NCBI GenBank assembly: GCA_001296005.1
Contig: LJHR01000026.1
Coordinates: 124,001-188,000 of the forward strand
Source: an alpha proteobacterium AAP38
GTDB lineage: Bacteria > Pseudomonadota > Alphaproteobacteria > Azospirillales > Azospirillaceae
Direction of reading: 5' to 3'
Length of the DNA: 64,000 nt
Shown: positions 26,659-42,003 of the stretch, in pieces
How the letters are laid out: each line of letters opens with the position of its first letter
Position numbering within the stretch: position 1 is the stretch's first letter
The notes under the pieces: model-generated
Databases searched by the model: none
What the model was told of the DNA's origin: nothing
What the model saw: the letters and a program-made list of their open reading frames with translations, nothing else
Position numbers and translations under genes: made by a program

Positions 26659-28563
26659 TTAGAACAGCCGCAGGATCGACTGCTGAGCCTGATTGGCCAG
26701 CGAGAGGGAGATGGTGCCCAGCTGCTGACGGGTCTGCAACAGCAGCAGGTTCGCGCCTTCCTCGTTCTGGTCGGCCTGGACCAGCTTGTTCGCACCTTCA
26801 ACCAGAACGTTGGAGAACTCGTTGGTGAAGCTCTCGCGGGTCTGGATGACGTTCAGGTTGGTTGACAGAGCCTGAGAGGCGCTGCGCAGCGTGGAGGTTG
26901 CGAAGTCCAGGCTGGCAACGGCCTTGTCGATATCGGCACGGTCCAGGAAGTTGTTCTGGGCATAGTCGATACGCAGGCCCTGGCCGTCCGACGTGACGTT
27001 CCGGCTCACCACCTGGATGTTGGAGGTGTTGTCGGCGTTGAACTGAACAGCCAGATCATTCTCGGTGTTGGCATCCGTACGCTGAACCGTCGTCAGGTTA
27101 GCCGACTTCGCAGCCGAGGCCGCCGCCTTGACGGTAGAGGCATCAACGGTCACACGAACGGTGCCGCTATCGAAGGTCAGCGAGTTCTCGCCTTCGCTCA
27201 GCTTGGAATTGCCGCGGGCATTCAGGCCCGAACGTTCCACCGTCACACCGTTGAGGTTCGTGGCCGACAGAGTGATGTCGACATTCTTCTCAATGGTCGA
27301 GACGCCGTTGGCGGCAGTGCCCTTCGCCTCAAGCAGAGTACGATCCACCGTGAACGAGACAGTCGTACCGGAGGAGAATGTCAGCGAAATTGCCTTCGTC
27401 GAGGCATTGGAGGAGGTTGCACCGATCGTGAAGCTGGTGCCGGTGCCGGTCGTCAGATCCGAGCTGACTTCAAAATAGTCATTGCCGGCATTGTAGACCA
27501 CATTGAAACGCTCGCCCGTGCCGTCCGCCGTGGCGCTGGTGCCAACAGCGGAGAAGTCCGAGCCGGCAGCCACTGCATCGGCAAGCTTGCTGGCAATCTG
27601 TTCGCGGAGTTCATCCGGCGTACGAGCAACGCCAGCGTTTTCCAGATCGCCCGCCTCAACCGTATATGAGAAGGACTGACCATTCACCGTCGCAGTGAAG
27701 GTATCACCCTCTTCGATAGAGCCGCTGATGGTGACGCGGGACGTCTGAGGCGTGCCCGAAGCACCAGCAGTCGTCGTGCTGGCGACCGCCGACTGCGTGT
27801 TGTCGAAGAACTTGAATGTACGCGACTCGCCGTTTTCCGTCACAATGGCCGTACGCTCACGACCGCTGTTACCGCGAATCTCGACGCTGATGTCGGAGAA
27901 GTTACCGGACGTCGCAGAGATGGTGCCGGCGACCTTCAAAGAGGCCAAGCCGCGGCTGTCCTCCGCCTTCGCGATATCTTCCAGATCGGCGCTGATGGCA
28001 CCGGTGCCGCTGACCTTAACGGAGTAGGTGTCGGCGCTGACGACGTTCGTCACTCGGCTATTCGACAGGCCGGAGATGCTGTTGACACCCTTGCGGCTGT
28101 CGGCGGTGCTGTCCAAGGTCAGACCATTGCCCTTCAGCAGGTTCTTACCCTGATAACCGCTGTCGCCGGCGATCTTGTCGATCTGATCCTTGAGGCGATT
28201 GAACTGCTCCGCCAGCGACTTGCGCGCAGCGATGGAGGAAGCGTCATTGCCCAGATTGGAGTAAGCGGTCGTGGTCAGACCACGGGCCTGTGCAACCAGA
28301 TCCTCAATGGCGGTGATACCCTTGTCACCGGCCTGGATCGTGCTGATGGCCTGGCCCATCGCTTCCTTGAGGCTCGACAAATCGCCTGCACGGGTGTTTA
28401 AGCCCTTCGCAGCGAAGAACGAGTTGGGGCCATCAAGGGCAGAATTGACCTTGTTACCGGTCGCCAGACGCGACTGGATGGACTCGACCTGCTTGTTGGT
28501 CTTCTGCAGGAGCAGAAGGTTATTACGCATACCAGCGGTCAAGCTGACGTCATTACCAGACAT
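26659..28563 (-). CDS. fliC: Flagellin
   Basis: 634 residues from the ATG at 28563, which has AGGAGAG eight bases ahead. The conserved N-terminal D0/D1 (VSLTAGMRNNLLLLQKTNKQ, then SIQSRLATGNKVNSALDGP) and the C-terminal D1/D0 (ANLLLLQTRQQLGTISLSLA, ending SILRLF) flank a ~360-residue variable surface region. The variable region is rich in Thr/Ser and contains a module like those in the hook protein (GDTFTATVNGQSFSYTVEAGD). Many Ser/Thr are available for O-glycosylation by the adjacent FlmG-like enzymes. An upstream in-frame ATG would add 20 untypical residues. It is longer than typical alphaproteobacterial flagellins (~270-400). Confidence 0.95.
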   Translation of the reverse strand: MSGNDVSLTAGMRNNLLLLQKTNKQVESIQSRLATGNKVNSALDGPNSFFAAKGLNTRAGDLSSLKEAMGQAISTIQAGDKGITAIEDLVAQARGLTTTAYSNLGNDASSIAARKSLAEQFNRLKDQIDKIAGDSGYQGKNLLKGNGLTLDSTADSRKGVNSISGLSNSRVTNVVSADTYSVKVSGTGAISADLEDIAKAEDSRGLASLKVAGTISATSGNFSDISVEIRGNSGRERTAIVTENGESRTFKFFDNTQSAVASTTTAGASGTPQTSRVTISGSIEEGDTFTATVNGQSFSYTVEAGDLENAGVARTPDELREQIASKLADAVAAGSDFSAVGTSATADGTGERFNVVYNAGNDYFEVSSDLTTGTGTSFTIGATSSNASTKAISLTFSSGTTVSFTVDRTLLEAKGTAANGVSTIEKNVDITLSATNLNGVTVERSGLNARGNSKLSEGENSLTFDSGTVRVTVDASTVKAAASAAKSANLTTVQRTDANTENDLAVQFNADNTSNIQVVSRNVTSDGQGLRIDYAQNNFLDRADIDKAVASLDFATSTLRSASQALSTNLNVIQTRESFTNEFSNVLVEGANKLVQADQNEEGANLLLLQTRQQLGTISLSLANQAQQSILRLF

Positions 28564-28570
28564 AGTGTCT

Positions 28571-28607
28571 CTCCTTTGGAGGTATGATTTACCCGAATTT
28601 TTCGGGT
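28571..28607 (-). promoter_or_regulatory. Flagellin mRNA leader hairpins, one covering the ribosome site
   Basis: In the minus-strand RNA, ACCCGAA-AAA-TTCGGGT (28591-28607) forms a 7-bp hairpin. Eight bases before the start region, CTCC-AAA-GGAG (28571-28581) pairs the Shine-Dalgarno GGAG with CTCC just upstream. FlbT is known in Caulobacter to act on a flagellin leader, so these are candidate FlbT targets; that link is inferred. Confidence 0.55.
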
Positions 28608-28648
28608 TAAGTGCAGGGAACACCTATTTCGGGGAGGAGTCAAGCCGT

Positions 28649-30124
28649 TTAACGACGGACGCCAGCACCTATACGCATGGACAGATCGCGCGCCAGTTCG
28701 GCAAGTGGCACGGACCAGTCACCGGGCCTTTCCTGGCGGAACAGACGGACAGAAGGATACCATGCAGTATCCGCCCGTCCCAGACCCCAGCGCCAGTCGG
28801 GAACCGCCGTGATTAGGATATTCGTGGCAATGCCGATGGCCCCCGCCAGATGGGCCGGCATTGTGCAGCAACTGACCAGAACATCCAGTCGGGAGAGAAT
28901 GGCAGCCGTGTCGGCGATGTCGGCAATCTTTGCGCCCAGATCGATGGTGCCTGGTGGCAATGAATACCGCGCCAGTTGCTGCCGTCCGCCCCCCACCTGC
29001 ACCACGACCGGGCTGATCCCCGGAATGGACATCAGTGGCAGCAACTGATCCAGGCTGAGGGAGCGTTCAAGATCGCGGGCATTGTCGGGATTGCCGGCCC
29101 ATACAAAGCCAACCCGTAATCGACGCGCCTCTGAGAGACGGGATTCCCAACGGGCGGCAAGCACCGGGTCGGGATGCAGATAGGGCACCCTGCCCGGAAC
29201 GTGCCCGGCATCCCTAACAAAGAGGCCCGGCAGTGACATGCATGGCAGAATGCCATCCACGGGCGGAACCGGCATCCCCTCATCGAGGAATGCTTCCACA
29301 CCTGGAAAATCGGCCAGCAGCCGGCGCATGGGGGCCGGGCGCTGCATGATGATACGCACCCCTTCCGCCGCCAGCAGAGGCAGGAACCGCAATATCATGA
29401 GGATATCGCCCAGCCCCTGCTCCACCGTCACCAGCACCCGCATCCCGAATACCGGCCGTTGCGTCAGAAAGCGTAAGCCGAACGGTGCCGCTCTGGCGCC
29501 CGCCGGCCCATCACGACGAAATTCGTGCAGCATCCAGCCGCGCGCCATGTCCCCTGTGAGAAGGCGCAGCAGCGACTCGTTCCAGCGCGCTCTGTTTCCC
29601 TCCGACGTGCCGACGGCCCCGCGGCGGCCAGCCTCGGTGAAGGCGCAAAGGGCTGCATCCACCGCCCCGGTCGCATGCAGCGCTGCCCCCAGCGAGTTCC
29701 AGTTTGCTGCGGAATCCGGTTCCAGCGCACAGGCGTGGCGCAACGTTACCGACGCCTCCGCAGCCCTGTTGCTCCCCAGCTGTGCCAGACCAAGATTGCG
29801 CCATGCACCAGCCATGTCGGGCGCAAGCGCGACGGTCCGCGCATAGGCAGGGACGGCGCGCGCATTGTCGCCAGACGCCCGATAGGCGTTGCCCAACAGC
29901 AGGTGTAGAGCAGGCATATCGGGAGCACCGATGAGGGCAGCCTGAAAAGCCTCAATGGCCTCCTGCGGCCTATGTAGTCGCAGGAGAGCCTGCCCCAACT
30001 GGGCCTGGGCATAGGAATCCTTGGGATCAAGCAAGACGGCCTTCGCGGCGGTAAGCTGTGCACCCGCCGGGTCGCCATCGGCCAGCAACTGCTCCGCCTG
30101 CCGGGCGAAAAATCCCGCTTCCAT
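28649..30124 (-). CDS. FlmG-like TPR glycosyltransferase, second copy
   Basis: 491 residues: TPRs in the first ~180, then a GT domain with VEQGLGDILMILRFLPLL near residue 233. It is 85 bases upstream of flagellin and on the same strand, the best placed of the four paralogues to act on it. The C-terminal nucleotide-sugar segment is unusual: DVLVSCCTMPAHLAGAIG replaces the DLVI-TAVGELAGALG of the giant protein, with Cys-Cys in place of the usual residues before the Thr. Either it uses a different donor or it is catalytically altered. Confidence 0.78.
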   Translation of the reverse strand: MEAGFFARQAEQLLADGDPAGAQLTAAKAVLLDPKDSYAQAQLGQALLRLHRPQEAIEAFQAALIGAPDMPALHLLLGNAYRASGDNARAVPAYARTVALAPDMAGAWRNLGLAQLGSNRAAEASVTLRHACALEPDSAANWNSLGAALHATGAVDAALCAFTEAGRRGAVGTSEGNRARWNESLLRLLTGDMARGWMLHEFRRDGPAGARAAPFGLRFLTQRPVFGMRVLVTVEQGLGDILMILRFLPLLAAEGVRIIMQRPAPMRRLLADFPGVEAFLDEGMPVPPVDGILPCMSLPGLFVRDAGHVPGRVPYLHPDPVLAARWESRLSEARRLRVGFVWAGNPDNARDLERSLSLDQLLPLMSIPGISPVVVQVGGGRQQLARYSLPPGTIDLGAKIADIADTAAILSRLDVLVSCCTMPAHLAGAIGIATNILITAVPDWRWGLGRADTAWYPSVRLFRQERPGDWSVPLAELARDLSMRIGAGVRR

Positions 30125-30226
30125 GTTTTCCGCCCCACCATGGCCCTGCCTGACGGCACCATGTCACAGAGGCGTTAAATAAATCCAGACGGCAAGCCAG
30201 AACAATTCGATCCAGAATTAAATAAA

Positions 30227-30256
30227 ATGCCGGAGACCTGACGGGTGCTCCGGCAT
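30227..30256 (-). terminator. Rho-independent terminator after the FlaG-like gene
   Basis: ATGCCGGAG / CTCCGGCAT 9-bp stem with a 12-base loop, followed on the minus strand by TTTTATTTAATT. A textbook intrinsic terminator 29 bases past the stop at 30285. Confidence 0.9.
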
Positions 30257-30284
30257 ATCAAGATAAAACGGTCGAGAACTGAAA

Positions 30285-30761
30285 TCAGGCGACGAAATTG
30301 ACCGTGCCCACCACGTTGCCGCCTCCAGCGATCACCACGGTCGGTGACGCTGCCACGGTCGGCGAAACGGTGGTCGCACCGGCACCGGCAAAGCCTGCAG
30401 GGGCAGAGCCGCTGATTGCGCTGATCCCGCCGCGCGCCAGGGCTAGAAGCTGATTCCCACCGGAACGCTCACCCGTGTTGGAAGATGCTTCCGAAACACC
30501 TGCCTCCCGACCACGCAGCTGATACTCGCGAACAACGCGCTTCGACGGGTATTGCGTCTCGACGTCACCGCTGCCGCCATCGCGGAACAACAGAACAGCA
30601 ACCGCAGCATCGCTGTCATATTGCAGGACGGGACTGACATAGGGCAGGTTGGATGAACGGGCCGGAGGGGCTTCAGTCAAACGCTCCTCAGCCGCGGCGC
30701 TGCTTTGCGTCACCGCAGACACATAAGGCGTTGATACGCTCCTGATCCCCTCAATCTGCAT
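30285..30761 (-). CDS. FlaG-like flagellar protein
   Basis: 158 residues from ATG 30761. Residues ~48-80 (AVAVLLFRDGGSGDVETQYP, then SKRVVREYQ) resemble the short conserved C-terminal core of FlaG proteins, which modulate filament length. After it comes an Ala/Gly/Ser/Thr-rich tail that looks unstructured. It lies between two FlmG-like genes near flagellin. FlaG homology is by motif eye-match only, so it could also be a different filament-associated protein. A longer start (30818) is possible but adds a basic stretch not found in FlaG. Confidence 0.5.
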   Translation of the reverse strand: MQIEGIRSVSTPYVSAVTQSSAAAEERLTEAPPARSSNLPYVSPVLQYDSDAAVAVLLFRDGGSGDVETQYPSKRVVREYQLRGREAGVSEASSNTGERSGGNQLLALARGGISAISGSAPAGFAGAGATTVSPTVAASPTVVIAGGGNVVGTVNFVA

Positions 30762-30955
30762 GGCCGTAAGCCTTCTCGTAGACCGGTGAACATTAGCGCA
30801 GCTCAACGGAACACGCAAACGGAATCTTTGAAACCGCTAAATATGCAGAATCATTGAGGAGTCACGAACCCCATCCCCACTATACGGATGATACCATTTT
30901 CATTTGGCCAACAGAGATATGGCAAAAAGATAAGCTTGAAATCCAACAGTTTGAC

Positions 30956-32878
30956 TTATCCAGATCTTTTGGGTGGTGACAGCGCCAGCGCGTTAACCAA
31001 TTCGGCGATTGCGAGGCGCCAATCAGCCCATTGTCTCTGCCTGAAAAGACGCAACTCCGGATACCAGGGGTTGTCTGCCCGATGGCGCAGCCACCGCCAG
31101 CAGCCATCAAAGCGCGACAGCACCCAGGTCGGCCTGGCCAGCGCCGCCGAAAGATGGATGACAGCCGTATCCACACCGATCACCAAATCCAGTTCACTGA
31201 CCAGTGCCGCGGTATCGGCGAAATCCGTCAGTTCATCTGTCCAATCATGCAATGGGAAAGGCGCCTGCGCTGCCTCAGCTGCCTTGGGTCCCTTCTGGAG
31301 GCTGACATACGTAATGCCGGGGAGCGTGCCCAAGATCGCCAATTGCGACAGGGACAGGCTGCGTCTTTTGTCCGTTGCCGCCGCCCGCGGATCACCCTCC
31401 CGCGAATCCCCGGCCCAGACCAACCCCACCCTCAATCCCGGCAGATCGCGCAGCCGTTGACGCCACAGATCATGACGATCCGACGGGGCCGAGAGATATG
31501 GTACCTGCGCTGGAATGTCTGTCAGATTGCAGGTACCAAGGCGCAACGGAAGGCCCAGCAAGGGACAACGGCATGATACCGTCTCTGGCACCGGCGCTCC
31601 CAGCCGTTCAACCGCGATATCCGACGGCAGGCTTTCACGGAACAGCCTGACCAGGGCCGGCTGCACCTGCAACAGCACATTCAGGCCCCGCGCCCTCAGC
31701 AACGGCAGATAACGCACAAACTGCAAACTGTCGCCATGCCCCTGCTCCGCATGGACCAACAGGATGGCGCCTGACGGCAAGCTGCTGCCGTCCCAGACGG
31801 GGAGGGCACGCAAGACGGGGGAAAGGCTGAAGCCCGGTATGTCCCACCGCCATTCATATTCCCGCCAGCCTTCAACAAAATCCCCGGCTATCAAGCGGGC
31901 CTGCGCGCGTTGCCAATGCACCACGGGCATTGACGGGGCGAGTTGCAGCGACCGCTGATAACAGCGCTCCGCCCCCTCATCATCACCCAGATCACGCAGA
32001 AGCGTACCGAGATTGAGATGGGCGGGCAGATTATCCGGATCAATCACAATGGCGGCATCGAACGCCTGACGGGCGTCTTCCAGAAAGCCCTGGCCATGCA
32101 GGGCAACACCCAGCGCCACGAGGGGCCCAGGCCGGCCAGACGACCCGACCGCAGCCTGGCGCGCTGCGGCGGCAGCCTCCTCGAAACGCCCCAGGATGGA
32201 AAGCACATCCGACCGCGCCAGCAGGGCGGCGCCATTATCCGGCTCCCGCGACAGCACGGCATCGAACAGGGCCAGCGCCTCCTGATGTCGTTCCGCCCGC
32301 AGCAACGCAATGCCCAGGCGATTGGCGATGACGGTATTGGCCGGCGACAGGCGATGCGCTTCTGTCAGCAATGACACAGCCTCGGGCCGGTTCAGAAACT
32401 CTCCATCAGTACAACGGTTGAAAAGCACCGCCGCCAGATTGCCGGCTGCGGACGGCAAACCGGGTACCAGCACCAGGGCCCGGCGCAACAGCACCTCCGC
32501 CTCCTGCGGGTCCGTGCCGGCAAGCAGGGCACCCTGCTCCGCCAGGGCCTCCGCCTGCTGGGCGGGGTTTGCATCCAGTTGGGTAATGGCCGTGGCAAAG
32601 GCCTGCCGGGCCGCCGCCGGGTCACCGGACTGCCGCAGGGCGATACCCAGATTGTGCCACCAATCCCCGCGGCCATCCTTCATCCGCAGGGCCGTGCGCA
32701 ATGCCTTCACGGCAGCGCTTGCCTTGCCCTGGGAAAGGCATGACATGCCCAGCAGGTAATGTATTTCCGCCAGCGCGGGTGCCGCGACCAGGATATCCCG
32801 ATAGGCAGCCTCCGCCCCGGCCCAATCGCCCGCCTGATGGCGTGCGATGGCCTGATCGATCGCTGAATTGACATCCAT
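30956..32878 (-). CDS. FlmG-like TPR glycosyltransferase, third copy
   Basis: 640 residues from ATG 32878 (DVNSAIDQAIARHQAGDWAG). About ten TPRs fill the first ~350 residues, then the GT part has HAEQGHGDSLQFVRYLPLL near residue 376, and a C-terminal GVDTAVIHLSAALARPTWVL, which is closer to heptosyltransferase-type (GT9-like) nucleotide-sugar sites than the version in the giant protein. It ends in NPWYPELRLFRQ. The open frame extends further upstream, but that part lies over the Pro-rich lipoprotein and has no family match. Confidence 0.8.
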   Translation of the reverse strand: MDVNSAIDQAIARHQAGDWAGAEAAYRDILVAAPALAEIHYLLGMSCLSQGKASAAVKALRTALRMKDGRGDWWHNLGIALRQSGDPAAARQAFATAITQLDANPAQQAEALAEQGALLAGTDPQEAEVLLRRALVLVPGLPSAAGNLAAVLFNRCTDGEFLNRPEAVSLLTEAHRLSPANTVIANRLGIALLRAERHQEALALFDAVLSREPDNGAALLARSDVLSILGRFEEAAAAARQAAVGSSGRPGPLVALGVALHGQGFLEDARQAFDAAIVIDPDNLPAHLNLGTLLRDLGDDEGAERCYQRSLQLAPSMPVVHWQRAQARLIAGDFVEGWREYEWRWDIPGFSLSPVLRALPVWDGSSLPSGAILLVHAEQGHGDSLQFVRYLPLLRARGLNVLLQVQPALVRLFRESLPSDIAVERLGAPVPETVSCRCPLLGLPLRLGTCNLTDIPAQVPYLSAPSDRHDLWRQRLRDLPGLRVGLVWAGDSREGDPRAAATDKRRSLSLSQLAILGTLPGITYVSLQKGPKAAEAAQAPFPLHDWTDELTDFADTAALVSELDLVIGVDTAVIHLSAALARPTWVLSRFDGCWRWLRHRADNPWYPELRLFRQRQWADWRLAIAELVNALALSPPKRSG

Positions 32879-32879
32879 G

Positions 32880-33155
32880 TCAGGTGCCCGCCTTTGGCGC
32901 GGGGGGGGTGGGGGCAGGCTTGGCGGGCGGGGGTGGCTTTGCCGCGGGTGCCGGTGTCGTTGGTACCGGTGCCGGGGCGGGCGATGTTGCCGGGGGCGGG
33001 GCGGGAGCCGCAACAGGGGCCGGAGCCGCAGGGGCCGCTACCGTGGCTGGAGCCGGGGCCGGCGGGCGGGTCGGAACATACATGTAATTGTCGTTCACCT
33101 GGCTTTCATGGCTGGCGCAGGCCGATAGGGCCAGACCCAGCACTAGGATCACCAT
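32880..33155 (-). CDS. Small Pro/Ala-rich lipoprotein
   Basis: 91 residues. A short hydrophobic signal ends in the lipobox LSAC (Cys13 would be lipidated). The mature part is a long Ala/Pro repeat tail of low complexity, suited to span a wall or periplasm gap. The stop is one base before the third FlmG-like start region, so the two are likely coupled. A GTG at 33218 could start a version with 21 more N-terminal residues. Confidence 0.6.
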   Translation of the reverse strand: MVILVLGLALSACASHESQVNDNYMYVPTRPPAPAPATVAAPAAPAPVAAPAPPPATSPAPAPVPTTPAPAAKPPPPAKPAPTPPAPKAGT

Positions 33156-33223: not shown

Positions 33224-33919
33224 CTAGCGCGAGACCTGATCTAGGAAGCTTTCATCATGCACAATGATGTAGCCGTTACGGTAGGAAATGGCCCCTGCTG
33301 TCTGGAACTGCTTCAACGTCTTGTTCACGCTTTCCCGCGACACGCCCAGCATATTGGCCAGATCTTCCTGGCTGACGAAGGTGGTGATGCGTGTACCGGC
33401 ATCGGTGGCGCGGCCATAGGCCTGGGACAGCATGAGGATGCGCTTTGCCAGTCGGCGCGGTACGTTGAGGAAAACCGTGTCCTCGATGATCGCGCTTGTC
33501 CAGCGCACCCGTTCGCACAGAACCGTCATGAGGCGAACGCAGAGATCAGGACGCTGCAACAGAAACGGCATGAAATCGCGGCGGTCGATCCGCAGAAGTT
33601 CCGTGGCCTCCTGCGCCACCACCGTTGCCGTCCGCTCGCCACCATCAAGCATGGCGATCTCCCCGAACAGGGAGCCCGTATCAAGGATGTTCAGCAGCAT
33701 GACCTTCGCCTCATCCGACTCGGTCTGTACCGCCACCCGTCCACGCAGAATGACATAGAGGCTGTCGCCAGGGTCACCCTTGGCGAAGATACGCTCCTCC
33801 GCTGCGGCCCGCCGAACCTTGGCGAACTCCAGCATCGCTTCCATTTCAGTGTCGTCTAATACCGCGAAAAGACTGTTGCGGCGCAGAAGCGCGGTATCTA
33901 AGGCAGGTGCCACTGACAT
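33224..33919 (-). CDS. Crp/Fnr-family transcription regulator
   Basis: 231 residues: a cyclic-nucleotide-binding domain (FGEIAMLDGGERTATV at about residue 90, with the Glu and Arg-Thr that contact cAMP in Crp) and a C-terminal winged helix (SQEDLANMLGVSRESVNKTL). No N-terminal Cys set for an Fe-S cluster, so Fnr function is unlikely. It lies just downstream of tfuA. A perfect TGTGA-N6-TCACA site is present 2.5 kb away in front of the putative RiPP precursor gene. Together with the cyclase gene at 36925 it could make a local cAMP circuit. Confidence 0.85.
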   Translation of the reverse strand: MSVAPALDTALLRRNSLFAVLDDTEMEAMLEFAKVRRAAAEERIFAKGDPGDSLYVILRGRVAVQTESDEAKVMLLNILDTGSLFGEIAMLDGGERTATVVAQEATELLRIDRRDFMPFLLQRPDLCVRLMTVLCERVRWTSAIIEDTVFLNVPRRLAKRILMLSQAYGRATDAGTRITTFVSQEDLANMLGVSRESVNKTLKQFQTAGAISYRNGYIIVHDESFLDQVSR

Positions 33920-33934
33920 CCCCCTGTCATCTCC

Positions 33935-33959
33935 GGGGGAACGGTAACCACGTTCCCCC
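33935..33959 (-). terminator. Hairpin between tfuA and the crp-like gene
   Basis: GGGGGAACG, 7-base loop, CGTTCCCCC: a perfect 9-bp stem without a T-run on either strand. It could partly end the ycaO-tfuA message or act as an operator for a dimeric repressor. Confidence 0.5.
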
Positions 33960-33998
33960 TACATTGCCAGGATTGATGCCGCGGCAGGAAAATGCAAG

Positions 33999-34748
33999 TC
34001 AGACGGGCATTGCCGATGCCGGACGGGCCACCCGCTCCCACATGGCCGTATGCTCGAAAGCGTAGATCGGTCGGACGCTGAGGGTGCCACTGGCCAGCGT
34101 ATCGCGCACATGGGTCAGCAGGGACACGGCATCCTCGCGCTTCTGATCGGCCCGCCCGATGGTCAGCCAGTCACGGAAAGCGGACAACTCGAAAGGATCG
34201 GCCTCGCCTTCCTCCTCCGCCTCGCGCAGGACTCGACCATAATTACGGTCGCGGTAACAGAGATCCTTGGCAATCTCCTCCAGGCGCCGCCGTCCCTCTA
34301 CCGAGAGGATGGCAGCGGCATGCGCGTCGGACAGGGTGCGGCGGATATTGACCATGGCTTCGGACAGCGAAGGATAGCCAAGCTCCGCCGGTCCATGGGT
34401 GACTGCCACCTCGTCATCATCTTCCAGCCGACCATCGGCGAAGGCCTGGAACACGGCCCCATGGCCTTCCATCCCGAACGTATGCAGTTCGGCTGCCCGC
34501 AGGGCCCCCATGCTGGCCGCCCCAAACACCGGGATACCGCGCGCCATGGCAAAAAGGATTTCCTTGTGCCAGACGGCAGGGACATTCCCGAAATAGCCAT
34601 CAATGATGATGATGGCCGCCGGATTATCCTGAACTGCGCGCAGCACGTCGCCCTGTGCGACAGGCGGTCGGAAATCAGCGTTCAACACCTTGCGCGCGGC
34701 GGATACAGGCAGGGTGGGGCCCAGGAAGACGATCACAGGATTGCTCAT
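33999..34748 (-). CDS. tfuA: TfuA-like protein (thioamidation partner of YcaO)
   Basis: 249 residues. The TfuA core is clear: LGPTLPVSAARKVL at the start, IIIDGYFGNVPAVWHKEILFAMARG and FGAASMGALRAAEL in the middle. In thioviridamide-type RiPP pathways and in methanogen McrA modification, TfuA works with YcaO to convert a backbone amide to a thioamide, probably by delivering sulfur. It follows ycaO by 18 bases, a fixed pair in those systems. Confidence 0.92.
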   Translation of the reverse strand: MSNPVIVFLGPTLPVSAARKVLNADFRPPVAQGDVLRAVQDNPAAIIIIDGYFGNVPAVWHKEILFAMARGIPVFGAASMGALRAAELHTFGMEGHGAVFQAFADGRLEDDDEVAVTHGPAELGYPSLSEAMVNIRRTLSDAHAAAILSVEGRRRLEEIAKDLCYRDRNYGRVLREAEEEGEADPFELSAFRDWLTIGRADQKREDAVSLLTHVRDTLASGTLSVRPIYAFEHTAMWERVARPASAMPV

Positions 34749-34766
34749 GGTCTATCCCTCCAGGGG

Positions 34767-36005
34767 TCAGGCAAGCCCGGCGGCGCGGCGCCCGCGCGCA
34801 CCCAGGCTATATTGCGACGTCGCATCCACACCTTCGAGGCCCGGCACCACAACCCGGACAACGGGGATGCCGATCTCGGCACGGGTCAGGTCTACAACGA
34901 CGACATCTTCGATACCGACATTGGTAAGGCGCTGCCGCAACTCGCCCAGGTCACCGCGCAGGGATTGACCGCGCCATCCCTTGATCTCGTTGAAGTCACG
35001 TACTGTAGCGCCCAGACGGATGCGGTTCAGCCACAGCATCTGCTGCTCTTCCGCCAGGAAATGATCATATTCCTCGCGGCGCATGTCATCGCGCGCACCG
35101 GAGATGAAGGTCAGCCGGCTTTGCGCAGCCTCGGTCAGGGCGCGGGACAGCGCGATTTCCGGCACCAGATTCGTGCCATAGCCGGCGGCCGGGCGCACCG
35201 TCGTCCCCAGGCCGGCATCGGCCTGAACAATGCGGGCCAGGAAGGTGGGGACCCCGATATCGGACGTCAGGTCCCACACCCCAACGGCAACACCGGCATG
35301 GGCGAAGCGTGCCAACAGCGCACGGCAAGCCGGATCGGCGATGGTTTCCAGGTCAACGCGGGTATCTTCCTGCGCCTCTTCGGGCAGCAGATTCCACAAG
35401 GTGCGGGCATCCCGCTCAATCACTTCGGAAAGACCGTGGATCACCGCCTCGATCCAGTGATTGCCCGACGCCAGACCGTTCGACGTGGCCTGAAAACAGC
35501 CATGACCCGTTGGCAGCGGCAGGGTATAGTTGCTGTGAACCATCTCATACGGGATCCACAGGCTGTTGCCATCCCGGAGATTGGTGCCCTCCGCCCACAG
35601 CAACTGATGGTGCGGGGTGTAGACACTGTCCATGTTGCAGGGAAGCAGATCGGGGTCCACCACGGGCAGCGAGTAGCGCAGATCCTCATAGGAACCGATA
35701 CGCAGCGACAGGTGCGAGGCCCGTTCCGCATGCCAGCTTTCAATGCTTTCCATCACCGCAGACGCCTTGGCCGCAGCCAAGGTGACGCCTTTACCCTGCG
35801 AAACGGCCAAACCGCGAGAATTGGGGCGGTTGACCATGACGACGGGAATACCGATCGTGTCCAGGCCGGTAACATTGGCCACGCGGGTGATGCCGAATAA
35901 CGGGAACAGCGGTTTAACACGGGCCAGCGTCTCTTCCGCCGAGACTAACCGGCGCCATTGCGGGGCTTCCAGATTGTCCCAGTCGGTCAAGCGAACCTGA
36001 TCCAT
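34767..36005 (-). CDS. ycaO: YcaO-domain protein, thioamide-forming type
   Basis: 412 residues; N-terminal region, then the YcaO ATP-binding fold with Glu-rich motifs AAKASAVMESIESWHAER and AVIHGLSEVIERDA. YcaO enzymes phosphorylate a peptide backbone amide using ATP. The C terminus (SLGARGRRAAGLA) lacks the Pro-rich PxPxP end of azoline-forming cyclodehydratases, and no E1-like/ThiF partner is present, which fits thioamidation with TfuA. It is 86 bases downstream of the small precursor gene on the same strand. Confidence 0.92.
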   Translation of the reverse strand: MDQVRLTDWDNLEAPQWRRLVSAEETLARVKPLFPLFGITRVANVTGLDTIGIPVVMVNRPNSRGLAVSQGKGVTLAAAKASAVMESIESWHAERASHLSLRIGSYEDLRYSLPVVDPDLLPCNMDSVYTPHHQLLWAEGTNLRDGNSLWIPYEMVHSNYTLPLPTGHGCFQATSNGLASGNHWIEAVIHGLSEVIERDARTLWNLLPEEAQEDTRVDLETIADPACRALLARFAHAGVAVGVWDLTSDIGVPTFLARIVQADAGLGTTVRPAAGYGTNLVPEIALSRALTEAAQSRLTFISGARDDMRREEYDHFLAEEQQMLWLNRIRLGATVRDFNEIKGWRGQSLRGDLGELRQRLTNVGIEDVVVVDLTRAEIGIPVVRVVVPGLEGVDATSQYSLGARGRRAAGLA

Positions 36006-36053
36006 TGCCGTTCCCTTTCACATTCAATCAGATACGCAACAACACCGGTTGGG

Positions 36054-36079
36054 GCTGCCCCGGAATCCTCCAGGGCAGC
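36054..36079 (-). promoter_or_regulatory. Stem-loop between the precursor gene and ycaO
   Basis: In the minus-strand RNA a 10-bp stem (one G-U pair) with a 6-base loop lies 12 bases after the precursor stop. No T-run follows. Such a hairpin between precursor and enzyme genes commonly gives more precursor than enzyme message by stalling or protecting the 3' end. Confidence 0.6.
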
Positions 36080-36091
36080 ACCCACCAGTCG

Positions 36092-36268
36092 TTACATCTT
36101 GGCCATATGCAGATCGGCACTCGCGAAGTGCAGGTCGGCGGAAGCGCCATTATCCATCGCGCGCTGCGCCGGAACGCGGCCGCGGGACAGGTTCTGCTCC
36201 TCGGTCACAACCACGGCCCCGTTCGGGCCAATACGGTACAGGCGGCCATCGGCACCACGCGTCAGCAT
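36092..36268 (-). CDS. Candidate RiPP precursor peptide with duplicated ASADLH core
   Basis: 58 residues from ATG 36268, with AAGGAGA eight bases ahead, the best ribosome site in the region. The leader-like first part is MLTRGADGRLYRIGP, with NGAVVVTEEQNLSRGRV following. The end is ASADLH-F-ASADLH-MAKM, a tandem repeat typical of multi-core RiPP precursors. It lies directly before ycaO-tfuA. The two ASADLH units use different codons. No signal peptide or membrane helix. No protease or exporter gene is adjacent, so how a product would leave the cell is unknown. It could be an unrelated small protein, but the placement and repeat make a RiPP substrate the best reading. Confidence 0.75.
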   Translation of the reverse strand: MLTRGADGRLYRIGPNGAVVVTEEQNLSRGRVPAQRAMDNGASADLHFASADLHMAKM

Positions 36269-36380
36269 ATGTGTTCTCCTTGGATTACAGCTTAGAGTTT
36301 GTTCGAGTGACAACCTGACAACGCAGAGCGCATGTGTCTGGCCTCGCCAATGACCGTAATCCGGCACGTCCGTTTTGCTG

Positions 36381-36396
36381 TGTGAAGTGGTTCACA
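36381..36396. promoter_or_regulatory. Perfect CRP-class binding palindrome
   Basis: TGTGA-AGTGGT-TCACA, matching the CRP consensus in all ten defined positions, inside the 229-bp divergent region between the precursor gene and the ribbon-helix-helix gene. It is ~120 bases from the precursor start and ~100 from the other start, so it could serve either. A pair of TGACAAC repeats at 36308-36322 lies between it and the precursor gene. Confidence 0.75.
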
Positions 36397-36497
36397 GCAT
36401 CGTATGCAGAAGGAACGCTATGGTGTGTTCACAAAGCGCGGCCGATCGCATCAAAGGGCGATAGGCATCCACTTGATCCAGAAAGGCGAGGTCGCCG

Positions 36498-36836
36498 ATG
36501 AACGCTCCGCATTCCCGTAACGATATTACGGTCTATGAGCCCCACGATCTGGAGATCGATGGGCAGCTGATCAGCCACAATGTCTGGGTTGACGGACATC
36601 GGACCAGTGTTCGCCTGGAAGCCGTGATGTGGCAGGCACTGCATGAAATCGCTGAACGCGAAGGGTTCAGCATCCATCAGGTGATCACGATCGTGTCGCG
36701 CCGCCAGCACCAGAACGCGTCGCTGACCGCCACGATCCGGGCCTTCCTGGTGGCATATTATCGCGCCGTGTCCAAGGGCGTGTCGACCATGCTGCTGCGT
36801 GATCTGTCCGACCTGCCGGCCGATCTCAAATTCTAG
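36498..36836 (+). CDS. Ribbon-helix-helix domain protein
   Basis: 112 residues; the central part HRTSVRLEAVMWQALHEIAE with the following REGFSIHQVITIVSRR matches the RHH_4 family of small DNA-binding proteins, often annotated next to replication or flagellar genes in alphaproteobacteria. It diverges from the precursor gene and may autoregulate the shared region. A strong terminator follows. Confidence 0.8.
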   Translation: MNAPHSRNDITVYEPHDLEIDGQLISHNVWVDGHRTSVRLEAVMWQALHEIAEREGFSIHQVITIVSRRQHQNASLTATIRAFLVAYYRAVSKGVSTMLLRDLSDLPADLKF

Positions 36837-36871
36837 ACCCGACCGGATCTATCCGGCCTTGCCAGTAAAAC

Positions 36872-36908
36872 AGGAGCGGCCGCAAAGCGGTACCGCTCCT
36901 TTTATTTG
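36872..36908 (+). terminator. Bidirectional intrinsic terminator
   Basis: AGGAGCGG / CCGCTCCT 8-bp stem, 13-base loop, followed by TTTTATTT on the plus strand and GTTTTACT on the minus strand. It ends the RHH gene and can also end the cyclase gene on the opposite strand. Confidence 0.88.
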
Positions 36909-36924
36909 CGCAAGCCGTTATGGC

Positions 36925-39873
36925 TCAGTGAAGCAAGGCGGATCGCCCGGCCACACCAAGACTGTTGGTGGGCAAGTGATGGGCCATCGCCTTAAGATCG
37001 CTCTCTTCAGGCATGGACCGGCGAAGCAGGCCATAACCCCGCTCCTGTACGGTGCGGGCCAATTCCTGCCGCTCCTTCAACGCCTCTTCCATCCGTCCTG
37101 CCAGGGCAAGGACGAGCATGCGGGCGTGACGTGCCCATGCCCCATGCAGGGCCGCTCCCCTGCTCTGTGCAAGCCGCAGCCCGCGCTCAATATCCGCAAG
37201 CCCGCCACTAACCCGGCCAAGATAGGCCAATGCCAAACCGCGCCGGGCCAGATTGATGGCGTCCAATAGAGTCGATCCGGTTGCACGCGAGATGTTGAGC
37301 GCCTCGGAGCTGAAAGCCAGGACATCGCCAAAACGGCGCTGCCGCATCCGGACATCGGCAAGGTCAAGGCGGGCATAAATACGGTTGAACGGATAGCTGC
37401 TGGCCTGCGCGCCCTGCAGCGCCTTCTGAACAAATATCTCCGCCTCTGCGTCCCGTCCAAGCTGGGACAGGCAGCAGGCCCGCTTTCCGGCTATCACCAT
37501 CCCGGCATCCAGGGTCAGGTAAAGCCCGCGTTCGTGATTGATCCAGGCTTCCGTCCGTTCCGCCAGATCCAGCAATGTCAGGGCCTGTTCTGCGGACCCA
37601 TCATCCAGAAGGCAGGCAGCGGCGATGATCAGCAATTCCGGATGGGCACGGGTCATCCCGCCGCTATAGGCGATAACCGTCTCCGTCAAGGCGACAGCCT
37701 GGTCCAGACGGCCATAAACCCGTTCGTAATTTATCTGCTGCACCATGCCGGCCAGGGCACGCGACTCGTCGCCAGCCGCGCGCGCAAGAACGACCGCACG
37801 GTCCAATGCCAACAGCGCGCGCCCCCCGTCACCCGCGGGCATGGCCGCCCGGGCCAGGGCCAGACGCAGGTCGATGCCATCCAGCATAACCTCATGCGTG
37901 TCTTCCAGCTTTTCATTCGCTTCCACAGCGATGGACAGAAGGGAAACAGCCTCCACCGCCAGGGATCGGCTCAACGCATCCTGTGCGGCGGCACGGCCCG
38001 CCTGCACGGCGGTATCCCAGAGGCAGCCACTGGACGCATGGCGCGCCTGGGCTGCCAACCGGCCTGGCAGCTGCACGAATTCTTTATCCCCCAGCAGCAG
38101 GGCCAGGGCGGCGTGCTGGTGTTGGCGGTCACGCCGCGTGATGCCAGTATAAACAGCCTCATGCAGCAAGGCATGATGGAAGCTGCACTCCTGCCGGGGC
38201 AGCAGTCGGGTTTCATCAATGAAACCCAAACGGATCAGGTCCTGAAGACGATCCCCTATGGTGGCGCTGCGGAAATGCGCGGCCAGCACCGCGATATCGA
38301 ATGTCGGCCCGACCACGGACGCCGCCCGCAGCAACTGGCGGGCTTCCTCGTCCAGCATGTCCAGGCGCGCCGCAAGCAATGACTGCACGGTATCCGGTAG
38401 CGGGATTTTTGGTACGGGACCGGGCAGCATAGCCCCGACATCGCCAAGCAGCGCCCCGTTCATCATGAGGACGCGAATGCATTCGACCATGAAAAACGGA
38501 TTGCCCCTGGCGCGGCGGGACAAGTCAGCCTTGATCGCTTCCAGCGCCGGCGACTGCCCCATCCACATATCCAGAAGACTGTTCACCTCGGACGCGGCAA
38601 GCGGGGACAGCGGATATTTTCGCAGGACCGTCTGGCTGGCGATGCTGGCCGCCAAGCCTTCCTCTCGGCTGGACAGGACCAGAACCATCCGTGTATCGGC
38701 AGGGGTCTGCTGAAGCAGGGCGGACAGGGTGGCCTGCACCGCCGTGTCCGCCCAATGCGCATCCTCCACCAGCAGGACAAGGGGGTGACGGGTGGCGGCA
38801 GACCGGGCCAGGGCGACAACGGCACTGACCGCCAGCGCCAGAATGGCCGACGCTCCACCCCGGCTTTCATCATTGCTGGGCAGAAGCACACCGACCAAGG
38901 CATCCGCCTCTTCCGGGGAGGCGCCTGCGGCACGCAGCATGGCCGCAATACCACCCCCCGTCCGGGGCAGGGGGCAATCCAGAAGCTCCACAACCAGCTG
39001 GTGCAACGGGCTGGGGGCGCCCACAGGCTCCACCGCGGGCACCTGCCATTCAATCACTCGCAAGCCCCGCGAACGGGCCATGTCGGACAGGGCACGGATC
39101 AGGCGCGTTTTGCCCAGGCCGGCTGCACCCTGCACCAAATGCGCGGAAAATGGCGTCGAATGGTCACCATCCAGGGCGTCCATGGCCAGGCCAAGCTGCT
39201 TGCGGATCGATTCACGCCCCACAAGCGGCAGGCAATCATCATACTGGCGGCGCCGGGTGCGCAGACCCAGAAACTCATGGCTCTGCGTCGGCTCATCTCC
39301 GCCCAGCGCCAGCAGCATCGAAGGGCGCGTTTCCACCCAATCAGAGATCAGCCGCGCTGTGCAATCCGCCAACCGGGCGCCATTGGGCGGGGCAGATTGC
39401 TGCATCTTTGCCGCGATGTGGATGGCGGGACCCGTCGCGGGATTGGCCGACTGCCGGCCAACCGCCATATGGTCCCACAACACTTCGCCTGAACAGATAC
39501 CGATACGAACAGCCCGACCGCCGCGCGCAACCTCACGAAGAATGGCATCGGCAGCGTAGCAAGCCCGGATCGCGTGATTTTCCTGGGAAACAGGAGCACC
39601 GAAAACAGCGTAGATACCATCGCCAAGGGTCTGGCAAACAGTGCCGCCGAAGGCCAGCACATGGCGGCGCATGATATCGATGATGCCCGACAACTGGTCA
39701 TAGGCGTCTTCCGGATCCTGCGGGATCACCAGCTTGGATGATTCAACAATATCGCAGAAGAAGGCCGTCACCATGCGGCGGTCGGCCCGCGTCAGCGCCG
39801 GGCGCGCGGAACCCACCGATGCAATCATGCCATCGTGTGTGTCTACAACGCTCTCGACACCCGCCACCGACAT
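36925..39873 (-). CDS. Class III adenylate/guanylate cyclase fused to an AAA-type ATPase and TPR-like region
   Basis: 982 residues. An N-terminal cyclase domain (FFCDIVESSKL and LGDGIYAVFG hold the two metal-binding Asp residues, about residues 40 and 85) is followed by an AAA-type NTPase with Walker A GAAGLGKTR (~residue 250) and Walker B-like LVLLVEDAHWAD (~residue 369). The last ~400 residues are helical repeats like those of MalT/LuxR-type STAND proteins, but no DNA-binding helix is present. It likely makes cAMP or cGMP in response to an unknown signal. The gene is close to a Crp-family regulator and a CRP site, so a local circuit is plausible. Confidence 0.87.
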   Translation of the reverse strand: MSVAGVESVVDTHDGMIASVGSARPALTRADRRMVTAFFCDIVESSKLVIPQDPEDAYDQLSGIIDIMRRHVLAFGGTVCQTLGDGIYAVFGAPVSQENHAIRACYAADAILREVARGGRAVRIGICSGEVLWDHMAVGRQSANPATGPAIHIAAKMQQSAPPNGARLADCTARLISDWVETRPSMLLALGGDEPTQSHEFLGLRTRRRQYDDCLPLVGRESIRKQLGLAMDALDGDHSTPFSAHLVQGAAGLGKTRLIRALSDMARSRGLRVIEWQVPAVEPVGAPSPLHQLVVELLDCPLPRTGGGIAAMLRAAGASPEEADALVGVLLPSNDESRGGASAILALAVSAVVALARSAATRHPLVLLVEDAHWADTAVQATLSALLQQTPADTRMVLVLSSREEGLAASIASQTVLRKYPLSPLAASEVNSLLDMWMGQSPALEAIKADLSRRARGNPFFMVECIRVLMMNGALLGDVGAMLPGPVPKIPLPDTVQSLLAARLDMLDEEARQLLRAASVVGPTFDIAVLAAHFRSATIGDRLQDLIRLGFIDETRLLPRQECSFHHALLHEAVYTGITRRDRQHQHAALALLLGDKEFVQLPGRLAAQARHASSGCLWDTAVQAGRAAAQDALSRSLAVEAVSLLSIAVEANEKLEDTHEVMLDGIDLRLALARAAMPAGDGGRALLALDRAVVLARAAGDESRALAGMVQQINYERVYGRLDQAVALTETVIAYSGGMTRAHPELLIIAAACLLDDGSAEQALTLLDLAERTEAWINHERGLYLTLDAGMVIAGKRACCLSQLGRDAEAEIFVQKALQGAQASSYPFNRIYARLDLADVRMRQRRFGDVLAFSSEALNISRATGSTLLDAINLARRGLALAYLGRVSGGLADIERGLRLAQSRGAALHGAWARHARMLVLALAGRMEEALKERQELARTVQERGYGLLRRSMPEESDLKAMAHHLPTNSLGVAGRSALLH

Positions 39874-40011: not shown

Positions 40012-42003
40012 TCAGCCATGCGGGGGCAAATTTTGCTTAAGAAATCGTATAATTTCTGCAAGCCCGGCTTCAACGCCTGATGAATGTAAGAATAGGCGCA
40101 TGGACGAGAACCATGGACGGGTACCCGCACCAAGAGTTGACCAGTCGCGATCTCTAACAATTCTCCAGACGGGTGTGCCCACCGCTCCTGCCAGTTCCCC
40201 TACGGCGGTCGGTGCCGTAATCACCAGATCCAGATTGGCGACCAAGGCGGCAAGTCCCTCAAGATCATTGGTAAGGTCCAGATCCGGCATGGTGTGCAGT
40301 ACTCGCCCTTCCCTTCCGAGGGCCGCAACCTCCTCCTCCCGGGCCGAATATTGCAGGTTGACCACCTGAATATCCGGTATGGCAAGCAAGGGCGCCCAGG
40401 CGTCCACATCCACATAATTGTGCCGGCGACGCGTGGTTATCAGGCGGGAGCGCCAGCAGATACCAACCCGCAGACCGGCAGGCAGCGCCGCCAACCACTG
40501 ACGGGCCGTTTCCGACCGCTTCCGGTCGACCACCAGATAAGGCGCGCCTGTATAGCCAGACAACGACGGGGCGATAAGGCCGGGCAGATCACCGGCCGGG
40601 ACATGCAGGTCGGCATCCGGGCGTTCGGGCGCATCCGACCCGTCAGGCGGCAAGCGCTGCGCCCGGATGGATGCCGACGGGAAACTGCGGGTGAAAAGCC
40701 CGACCAGACGGGGATCACACTCGATCACCGTCTGTTCGGCACGGCTGATCGCAGCTGCATATAGGCCTGCGAACATCAGCTCATCACCCAACCCCTGTTC
40801 CCGCCAGATCAACAGCCGCTTGTCGGACGCCGCTTCACCGCGCCACTGAGGTACTGTGAAACGTCGGTCGGGCAATGCTTCTCTTGCGGCGAAACGCCAG
40901 GAATAGTCCGACCAGCCCTCGGGAAGCTGGCCATCCTCCAAACGAAGCAGCGCACGGGCAACACGGACACGGGGCAAATCGGGGTCAAGCTCCAGCGCCC
41001 TGTCGATTGCCGCGCAACCGCGCGCGCGGTCCCCTTGCGCCAGCCGGCAGAGACCGAGATTGCCCCATACCTCCCCGGAGCCGGGCGCAATGGTCAAGGC
41101 CCGGGACAAGACGGCTTCCGCTTCCACCAACTGGCCGGTCAGTTCCAGGGCAGCGCCCAGGTTGGTCAGACCCTGAACATTATCCTGTTCCAGACACAGA
41201 CCCAGGCGATAGGCATCAATGGCGGCATCCATCTGATCCAGTTCCTGCAGCGCCACGCCCAGGAAAATAAAGGCCTCTGCACTTTCCGGTGCCGCGTCCA
41301 CCGCTGCCCGGTGAAAAGCCAGCGCTTCGCCCAGCTTGCCACGCTCGACCAGGATATTGCCCAGGTTCGACAAGGTTTCCGCATGACCGGGCCGCAGGGT
41401 CAGCGCCTGGCGATAGGCCTGTTCGGCACCCGCCAGCTCCCCCCGAAGGGCCAGGACAGCGCCAAGATTGTTCCAGGCCTGCGCATGTGACGGGTTCGCG
41501 GACAGCAGCAGCCGGTAGGAAGCCACTGCGGCATCCAGCTCGCCGATGGCCCGCTGGCTGTTGGCCAGATTAAACAGGGCCCCCGCATGTCCTGGCCGCC
41601 CGTCCAGGGATCGGCGATAGGCATCAATGGCCTGCCGGTGGGCACCCATGGCGGCATAGGCGTTTCCCAGATTGAACAGATAGGGGGAATGATCGGGGCG
41701 CTGCTGGAGCGCCTTGCGATGTGCCTCCACAGCGGGCGCTGGATGACCGGCAGCCCGCAGGGCGCTGCCCAGATTGTCCTGAATATCCGCGGCCTGCGGC
41801 TGGCGTTTGGCCGCGTCCTTCAGCAGGCGCACGGCTTCTGTCGGATCACCCATCTGCAATAGGGCAACCCCCAGCAGATTAAGCAGCTGCGCATTGCGCG
41901 GATCCCGTGTCAGCAAGGCCCGGTAGGCACGCGCTGCCCCCGCCACGTCTCCACTCTGGTGCATACGCACCGCCTGTTCGGCTGTAACCGGCATGCCCGT
42001 CAT
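40012..42003 (-). CDS. FlmG-like TPR glycosyltransferase, fourth copy
   Basis: 663 residues: about ten TPR repeats up to residue ~370, then REQGLGDELMFAGLY near residue 401 and a C-terminal DLVITAPTAVGELAGAVGTPVWR. This is the closest of the three smaller paralogues to the modules of the giant protein at 5177, including a TLGAGTRPWFSSMR tail. Located upstream of flaF but on the opposite strand, in a region otherwise devoted to flagella. Confidence 0.82.
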   Translation of the reverse strand: MTGMPVTAEQAVRMHQSGDVAGAARAYRALLTRDPRNAQLLNLLGVALLQMGDPTEAVRLLKDAAKRQPQAADIQDNLGSALRAAGHPAPAVEAHRKALQQRPDHSPYLFNLGNAYAAMGAHRQAIDAYRRSLDGRPGHAGALFNLANSQRAIGELDAAVASYRLLLSANPSHAQAWNNLGAVLALRGELAGAEQAYRQALTLRPGHAETLSNLGNILVERGKLGEALAFHRAAVDAAPESAEAFIFLGVALQELDQMDAAIDAYRLGLCLEQDNVQGLTNLGAALELTGQLVEAEAVLSRALTIAPGSGEVWGNLGLCRLAQGDRARGCAAIDRALELDPDLPRVRVARALLRLEDGQLPEGWSDYSWRFAAREALPDRRFTVPQWRGEAASDKRLLIWREQGLGDELMFAGLYAAAISRAEQTVIECDPRLVGLFTRSFPSASIRAQRLPPDGSDAPERPDADLHVPAGDLPGLIAPSLSGYTGAPYLVVDRKRSETARQWLAALPAGLRVGICWRSRLITTRRRHNYVDVDAWAPLLAIPDIQVVNLQYSAREEEVAALGREGRVLHTMPDLDLTNDLEGLAALVANLDLVITAPTAVGELAGAVGTPVWRIVRDRDWSTLGAGTRPWFSSMRLFLHSSGVEAGLAEIIRFLKQNLPPHG

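Follow-up and report, generated by a model that had tools for sequence, protein, structure and literature searches.

The described system closest to the locus presented here is the gcy-cgrA locus of R. centenum. According to the available part of PMC4681086, CgrA, a CRP homologue using cyclic GMP (cGMP), protects a TGTGA-N6-TCACA site upstream of the operon RC1_3785-gcyB-gcyC-cgrA; the divergent small gene RC1_3784 is also activated, and in R. centenum both flanks are CgrA-dependent. The same text prints the 16-mer TGTGAAGCAGTTCACA for RC1_3784, RC1_3785, gcyB and gcyC with the positions -43 and -188, and gives 295 CgrA sites from chromatin immunoprecipitation (ChIP). It describes gcyB and gcyC as non-catalytic guanylyl cyclase subunits tied to cGMP production, and the cGMP feed-forward part has been demonstrated in R. 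centenum. A second related class are the thioamidated ribosomally synthesized and post-translationally modified peptides (RiPPs), whose clusters combine adjacent YcaO and TfuA genes with a small precursor (PMC8120280). In the case of XC_0250/XC_0249 of Xanthomonas, a class III cyclase with a tetratricopeptide repeat (TPR) part is linked to a cyclic-nucleotide receptor; this receptor is a GGDEF protein and not a transcription factor, and the accessible text of the paper does not mention RiPP genes (PMC3770947). Here, we compare with these systems a locus at positions 33224 to 39873 of a 64,000-nucleotide stretch (G000:C19:124001-188000, in the following the window) from the 5.78 Mb genome of the alphaproteobacterium AAP38.

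Considering gene content, conservation, co-occurrence, promoter geometry and the match to the published layout, all of which can be read from sequence, the locus is very probably the Niveispirillum counterpart of R. centenum gcy-cgrA, with Crp-activated divergent promoters and a peptide modified by YcaO and TfuA. Four genes form an operon on the minus strand. The first codes for a precursor peptide of 58 residues (36092..36268; an open reading frame with AAGGAG ahead of its ATG) and is the counterpart of RC1_3785; it is followed by ycaO (34767..36005; PF02624, 5.2e-86) and tfuA (33999..34748; PF07812, 4.7e-46), the counterparts of gcyB and gcyC. The last gene, crp (33224..33919), codes for a CgrA-like regulator of the Crp family (PF00027, 1.2e-22; HTH_Crp_2, 2.5e-17). 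Divergent from the operon lies a plus-strand gene for a ribbon-helix-helix protein (36498..36836; RHH_4, PF13467, 1.7e-20), the counterpart of RC1_3784. Beyond it and convergent with it, the minus strand carries a gene for a protein of 982 residues (36925..39873), which consists of a cyclase-homology domain (PF00211, residues 34-175, 1.2e-7) and an AAA_16 part. The palindromic operator TGTGAAGTGGTTCACA, to which no strand is assigned, occupies positions 36381..36396, 112 bp from the ATG of the precursor and 101 bp from that of RHH_4. Profile matches and the motif scan thus agree with the original prediction, which had placed a cyclase, a Crp-type regulator and a perfect TGTGA-N6-TCACA here. 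The locus shares with that of R. centenum the four-gene operon ending in Crp, the divergent small gene and a TGTGAA-N4-TTCACA site between them; the difference is that gcyB and gcyC are described there as cyclase subunits, whereas here we find YcaO, TfuA and a precursor peptide. The nearest named relatives of YcaO belong to Niveispirillum and related Azospirillaceae.

The relative G076 allows best to connect the two descriptions. Its genome contains exactly one site of the stricter form TGTGAANNNNTTCACA; this site is TGTGAAGCAGTTCACA and lies ahead of the orthologous operon. The two starts flanking it are 232 bp apart, as compared to 43+188=231 bp deduced from the available text of PMC4681086, and gene order and strands are the same as published. 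Pfam assigns the genes to RHH_4, YcaO (PF02624, 1.9e-89), TfuA (PF07812, 5.7e-47) and Crp, and the precursor starts with MLIRGADGRLYAIE. Sequence identity with the window is 68.2% for YcaO, 62.6% for TfuA and 72.8% for the window Crp and the fourth gene of the operon. As in the window, a cyclase gene is located upstream; we take this AAA-cyclase gene to be gcyA. The name gcyA is not mentioned in the part of PMC4681086 that was available. From the 16-mer, the start spacing and the gene order, we conclude that G076 is R. centenum or a very near relative and that gcyB and gcyC correspond to YcaO and TfuA; RC1_3785 looks like a RiPP precursor. Within the literature searched, both assignments are new: the word YcaO is absent from the accessible text of PMC4681086 and of other cyst papers, while the original papers on cGMP and cysts and on the CgrA footprint, which lie outside this scope, could name YcaO and TfuA domains. 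Among the matches listed, no paper combined gcyB or gcyC with YcaO, and none of those retrieved for TfuA/Crp, YcaO/cyclase, TOMM/cyclase and Azospirillum/YcaO gave an earlier account of the link.

The site at 36381 is the sole perfect TGTGANNNNNNTCACA (TGTGA-N6-TCACA) of the whole window, which bears out the original prediction, in which no other perfect copy had been noticed by eye. One copy with a single mismatch occurs at 35534 within ycaO, and the bare motif is not enriched in the window (7 occurrences with up to two mismatches versus 18.1 expected). The genome-wide scan for the palindrome, proposed earlier as a check, yielded five perfect TGTGAN6TCACA copies and no match of the reversed control pattern; the strict form exists only once in this genome. 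Two further occurrences were noticed elsewhere. In G001, three perfect TGTGA-N6-TCACA copies stand in tandem (L085:2987-3046), with inner bases unlike the strict form. Outside the window, the site TGTGATTGGGATCACA (L086:3047-3062), also present in G003 and G007, precedes a gene pair that by eye resembles an efflux pump; its different inner sequence belongs perhaps to another regulator.

Conservation was assessed in a genus set of 11 genomes (the window genome and ten relatives, grouped as assigned automatically), in a family set of 82 genomes, and in a named collection of 80 loci kept from 111 relatives found, in which a Crp was counted at an identity of at least 40%. Note that the loci share ancestry and that their counts are not independent events. 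In the genus, YcaO occurs in 11/11 genomes, the block of RHH_4, precursor, ycaO, tfuA and crp is complete in the window and all ten relatives, and the palindrome is perfect in 10/11 (one mismatch in G004) within varying surrounding sequence. In the family, 59 of the 82 genomes contain the cluster Crp, 60 contain YcaO, and 58 contain both; in 57 of these 58, the two genes are adjacent on one strand, and in G041 the pair is split by contig ends. Upstream of ycaO, a site is found in all 58 genomes: 47 are perfect, i.e. possess TGTGAANNNNTTCACA within 1.5 kb, nine have one mismatch (among them G004) and two have two. Altogether, the 82 genomes contain 77 strict sites versus one match of the reversed control, and strict sites occur in 54/59 genomes with the cluster Crp versus 2/23 without it. 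G014, which retained Crp and lost ycaO and part of tfuA, has no strict site, and in G011 and G081, where YcaO and a cyclase-like neighbour exist without the cluster Crp, nothing upstream is better than five mismatches. In the named collection, 45 of the 80 loci include Crp; 39 of these 45 possess a perfect TGTGAN6TCACA and all 45 the strict form at up to two mismatches, whereas a perfect site is present in none of the 35 loci without the cluster Crp. The arms of the site are nearly invariant and the inner bases varied, as judged from 37 loci less than 80% alike. Because the site is conserved at the same place in relatives throughout genus and family, a chance motif is ruled out as an explanation. 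Together with a layout that matches a locus with published footprint, ChIP and expression work, this conserved co-occurrence substantiates the proposal that the local cyclic-nucleotide regulator, the operator and the cyclase belong together. In L128 and L145, two close copies lie upstream of ycaO; one of them is a perfect TGTGAN6TCACA, whereas the other deviates by a mismatch. The window flanks at 26659-33013 and 40012-42003, which contain flagellin and TPR/glycosyltransferase-like genes, are kept beside the locus in most genus genomes examined.

Away from ycaO, 28 strict sites were found in 24 family genomes. Of the 26 that were examined (G041:C946 and G050:C18:59045 were left out; the two sites in G077 and G081 entered the count without a placement), 17 precede RHH_4-like genes, four GNAT genes and five other genes. 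Thirteen of the 17 RHH_4-like cases belong to one related Azospirillum group, and the Pfam check was made on the representatives L200, L203 and L218. Judged by these positions, the operator travels together with RHH_4. In G021 and G039, the cyclase is gone from the ycaO locus and instead adjoins an RHH_4-like gene that possesses a site of its own. In four genus genomes (L073, L074, L075, L077), a strict site precedes a GNAT acetyltransferase gene, which in the latter three adjoins an AMP-binding gene of the acyl-CoA ligase type.

The surroundings of the operator indicate a symmetric arrangement. On the precursor side, a -10-like element TACGGT (36353..36358, minus strand) is located 30.5-35.5 positions from the dyad centre, and an element TATGGT (36419..36424, plus strand) lies at an equal distance on the side of RHH_4. 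When the 37 dissimilar loci were anchored at the site, weak signals appeared on either side of the dyad at a distance of 31-36 positions. At the offset of 30.5-35.5, the pattern (T/A)AnnnT occurs on the precursor side in 27/45 relatives, as compared to at most 4/45 at the other offsets from -6 to +6; for TA on the side of the divergent gene, the values are 30/45 and at most 9/45. Since the -10-like elements are found at one distance on both sides, the arrangement fits a class II-type activator site working in both directions. A scan for terminators at the locus gave nothing useful.

The operon contains what is typical of YcaO-TfuA thioamidated RiPP clusters: adjacent genes for YcaO (PF02624) and TfuA (PF07812), and a precursor with a conserved leader and a variable or repeated core. 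In the window, the leader MLTRGADGRLY is followed by the core repeat ASADLHF/ASADLHM. RGADG-type leaders exist in 40/45 Crp-bearing relatives and the cores differ among genera; in the remaining five loci (L107, L111, L128, L132, L145) no precursor was found. The modification introduced by YcaO and TfuA is probably a thioamidation. Unlike the clusters of PMC8120280, the main text of which mentions neither Crp nor cyclase, Azospirillum or Niveispirillum, the window cluster is coupled to a cyclic-nucleotide regulator. A different core architecture is seen in a Kiloniellales precursor of 159 residues (L099:7296-7775), which possesses about ten near-identical repeats of the DYxAGRMAIEA kind versus two short repeats in the window.

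These elements can be combined in a mechanism. Crp loaded with a nucleotide, probably cGMP, would bind to 36381-36396 and activate in a class II-type manner two divergent promoters, one driving precursor-ycaO-tfuA-crp and the other the RHH_4 gene; as the operon includes crp itself, positive feedback would result. YcaO and TfuA would modify the precursor, and the adjacent AAA-cyclase protein would be the likely maker or controller of the nucleotide, perhaps tuned by the peptide. We infer this last link because the genes are linked and because gcyB and gcyC have been reported to be connected with cGMP production. Several points weigh against this explanation. The identification of G076 with R. 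centenum relies on the 16-mer, the spacing and the gene order. A scan with the sigma-70 consensus gave no promoter match at the site and hence no support, which is to be expected if the promoter is activator-dependent. In the wider set of 46 Crps, Val replaces the window residue Thr141 in 29; therefore, the ligand may differ within the group. In six of the 58 genomes, no cyclase lies beside ycaO (in G009, the contig ends), and the active site of the cyclase is altered: Gln replaces Lys, Ala replaces Asp, His replaces Asn and Lys replaces Arg.

The cyclase deserves closer inspection. The protein occurs in 11/11 genus genomes (in G006 at another place), and in 52/58 family genomes its gene lies at most 7 kb upstream of ycaO. 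In nine genus sequences, both metal-binding residues, D40 and D84, are invariant; the same is true of Gln80 and Lys155, two positions occupied by Lys and Arg in CyaC (1wc0). Compared with a canonical class III cyclase, the metal-binding Asp pair is present, and the transition-state Asn and Arg as well as the adenine-specifying Lys and Asp are missing; these roles are the ones we assume for the respective positions. The replaced specificity residues give no indication of an adenylyl cyclase. It is quite conceivable, even if we lean slightly against it, that the protein has lost its catalytic function and serves as a switch of the ATPase/TPR type, the nucleotide being supplied by other cyclases of the genome; such a role would be compatible with the Crp-operator part of our explanation. 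Both transition-state residues are changed; in an alignment of 54 rows from Crp-bearing clusters, 48 show Lys instead of Arg (this table includes some genomes twice, its row L120 represents a different cyclase, the alignment of L235 is poor and that of L231 contains a gap). The genome contains six PF00211 domains; among the five outside the locus, Lys, Asn and Arg are retained in the four that were aligned, while one was left unaligned. However, the metal-binding pair is retained, the Asp-Gln-Asp combination occurs in 52/54 rows, and in the solved relative 1ybt, presumably an active enzyme, Lys and Asn are also replaced, by Asn and His, respectively.

Clusters lacking Crp offer a further comparison. 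In 20 of these 35 clusters, the retrieved sequence encodes a protein similar to cyclase-AAA. All six that were scanned contain AAA_16, which is preceded by a kinase in two cases, by kinase and cyclase in one and by the cyclase alone in three. A Ser/Thr kinase in place of the cyclase part (L140, L147) or besides it (L166) also speaks for a switch function. On the basis of these sequences, YcaO-TfuA is linked more widely with proteins of this kind than with Crp, and the former linkage may be older. The family TIGR03903 (TOMM system kinase/cyclase fusion) likewise places a cyclase-AAA protein beside a YcaO-type cluster, and it matches residues 28-862 of the window protein. We did not assign the protein to this family, as the score of 187.7 bits is below the cut-off of 705.75 and an N-terminal kinase domain is missing.

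With respect to the regulator, the pocket residues G86, E87, R96, T97, T141 and S142 and the recognition-helix residues R195, E196, N199 and K200 are invariant in 11/11 genus sequences. Among solved structures, the best matches are 3d0s, 3mzh, 3h3u and 3i54, which we take to be the cAMP receptor of M. tuberculosis; the assignment of the pocket positions as contacts of cyclic AMP (cAMP) is likewise our assumption. The original prediction interpreted the locus as a possible self-contained local cAMP circuit. The linkage of regulator, operator and cyclase has held, but cAMP as the signal and a private scope have become less likely. By analogy with the matching CgrA, which is described as cGMP-activated and as required for encystment, and in view of the cyclase, in which the Lys and Asp specifying adenine are replaced, cGMP is the likelier ligand. 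A circuit in which cAMP comes from the adjacent cyclase and Crp is dedicated to this cluster would agree with the retained contact residues, with the single strict site and with the cyclase beside the cluster in 52/58 genomes. Nevertheless, we consider it improbable: because CgrA has 295 ChIP sites in R. centenum, the circuit is probably not private, and relatives possess extra sites ahead of RHH_4 and GNAT genes. As the strict site occurs only once in G076 as well, the number of sites sets no bound on the regulon. That the operator is common and bound instead by a housekeeping Crp-type protein (L021 type), while the local Crp does something else, is very unlikely and was rejected: this type, the recognition helix of which (RETVAR) resembles that of CRP, occurs in 78/82 family genomes, yet the strict site, found once in the window genome, follows the cluster Crp and not the commoner L021 type, which 20 of the 23 genomes without cluster Crp possess and which has no match in G052 with its two strict sites, and the R. 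centenum footprint on the same 16-mer was made by the operon's own CgrA (PMC4681086, available part).

Dormant cysts of R. centenum have a trigger in the cGMP feed-forward loop. A bolder and rather doubtful extension of our explanation would be that the YcaO-TfuA-modified peptide is the signal switching on the AAA-type cyclase, whose nucleotide feeds back via Crp on peptide production. This would constitute a peptide-to-cGMP encystment relay, of which older versions lacking Crp would exist in Myxococcota and other phyla; if true, a RiPP and not a cyclase subunit would explain how gcyB and gcyC are connected with cGMP production. Should gcyB and gcyC indeed encode YcaO and TfuA, and RC1_3785 the precursor, the idea of non-catalytic subunits should yield to that of a modified peptide in the pathway. 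A RiPP family retained by 58/82 family genomes, including those of plant-associated Azospirillum, would thereby obtain a likely role.

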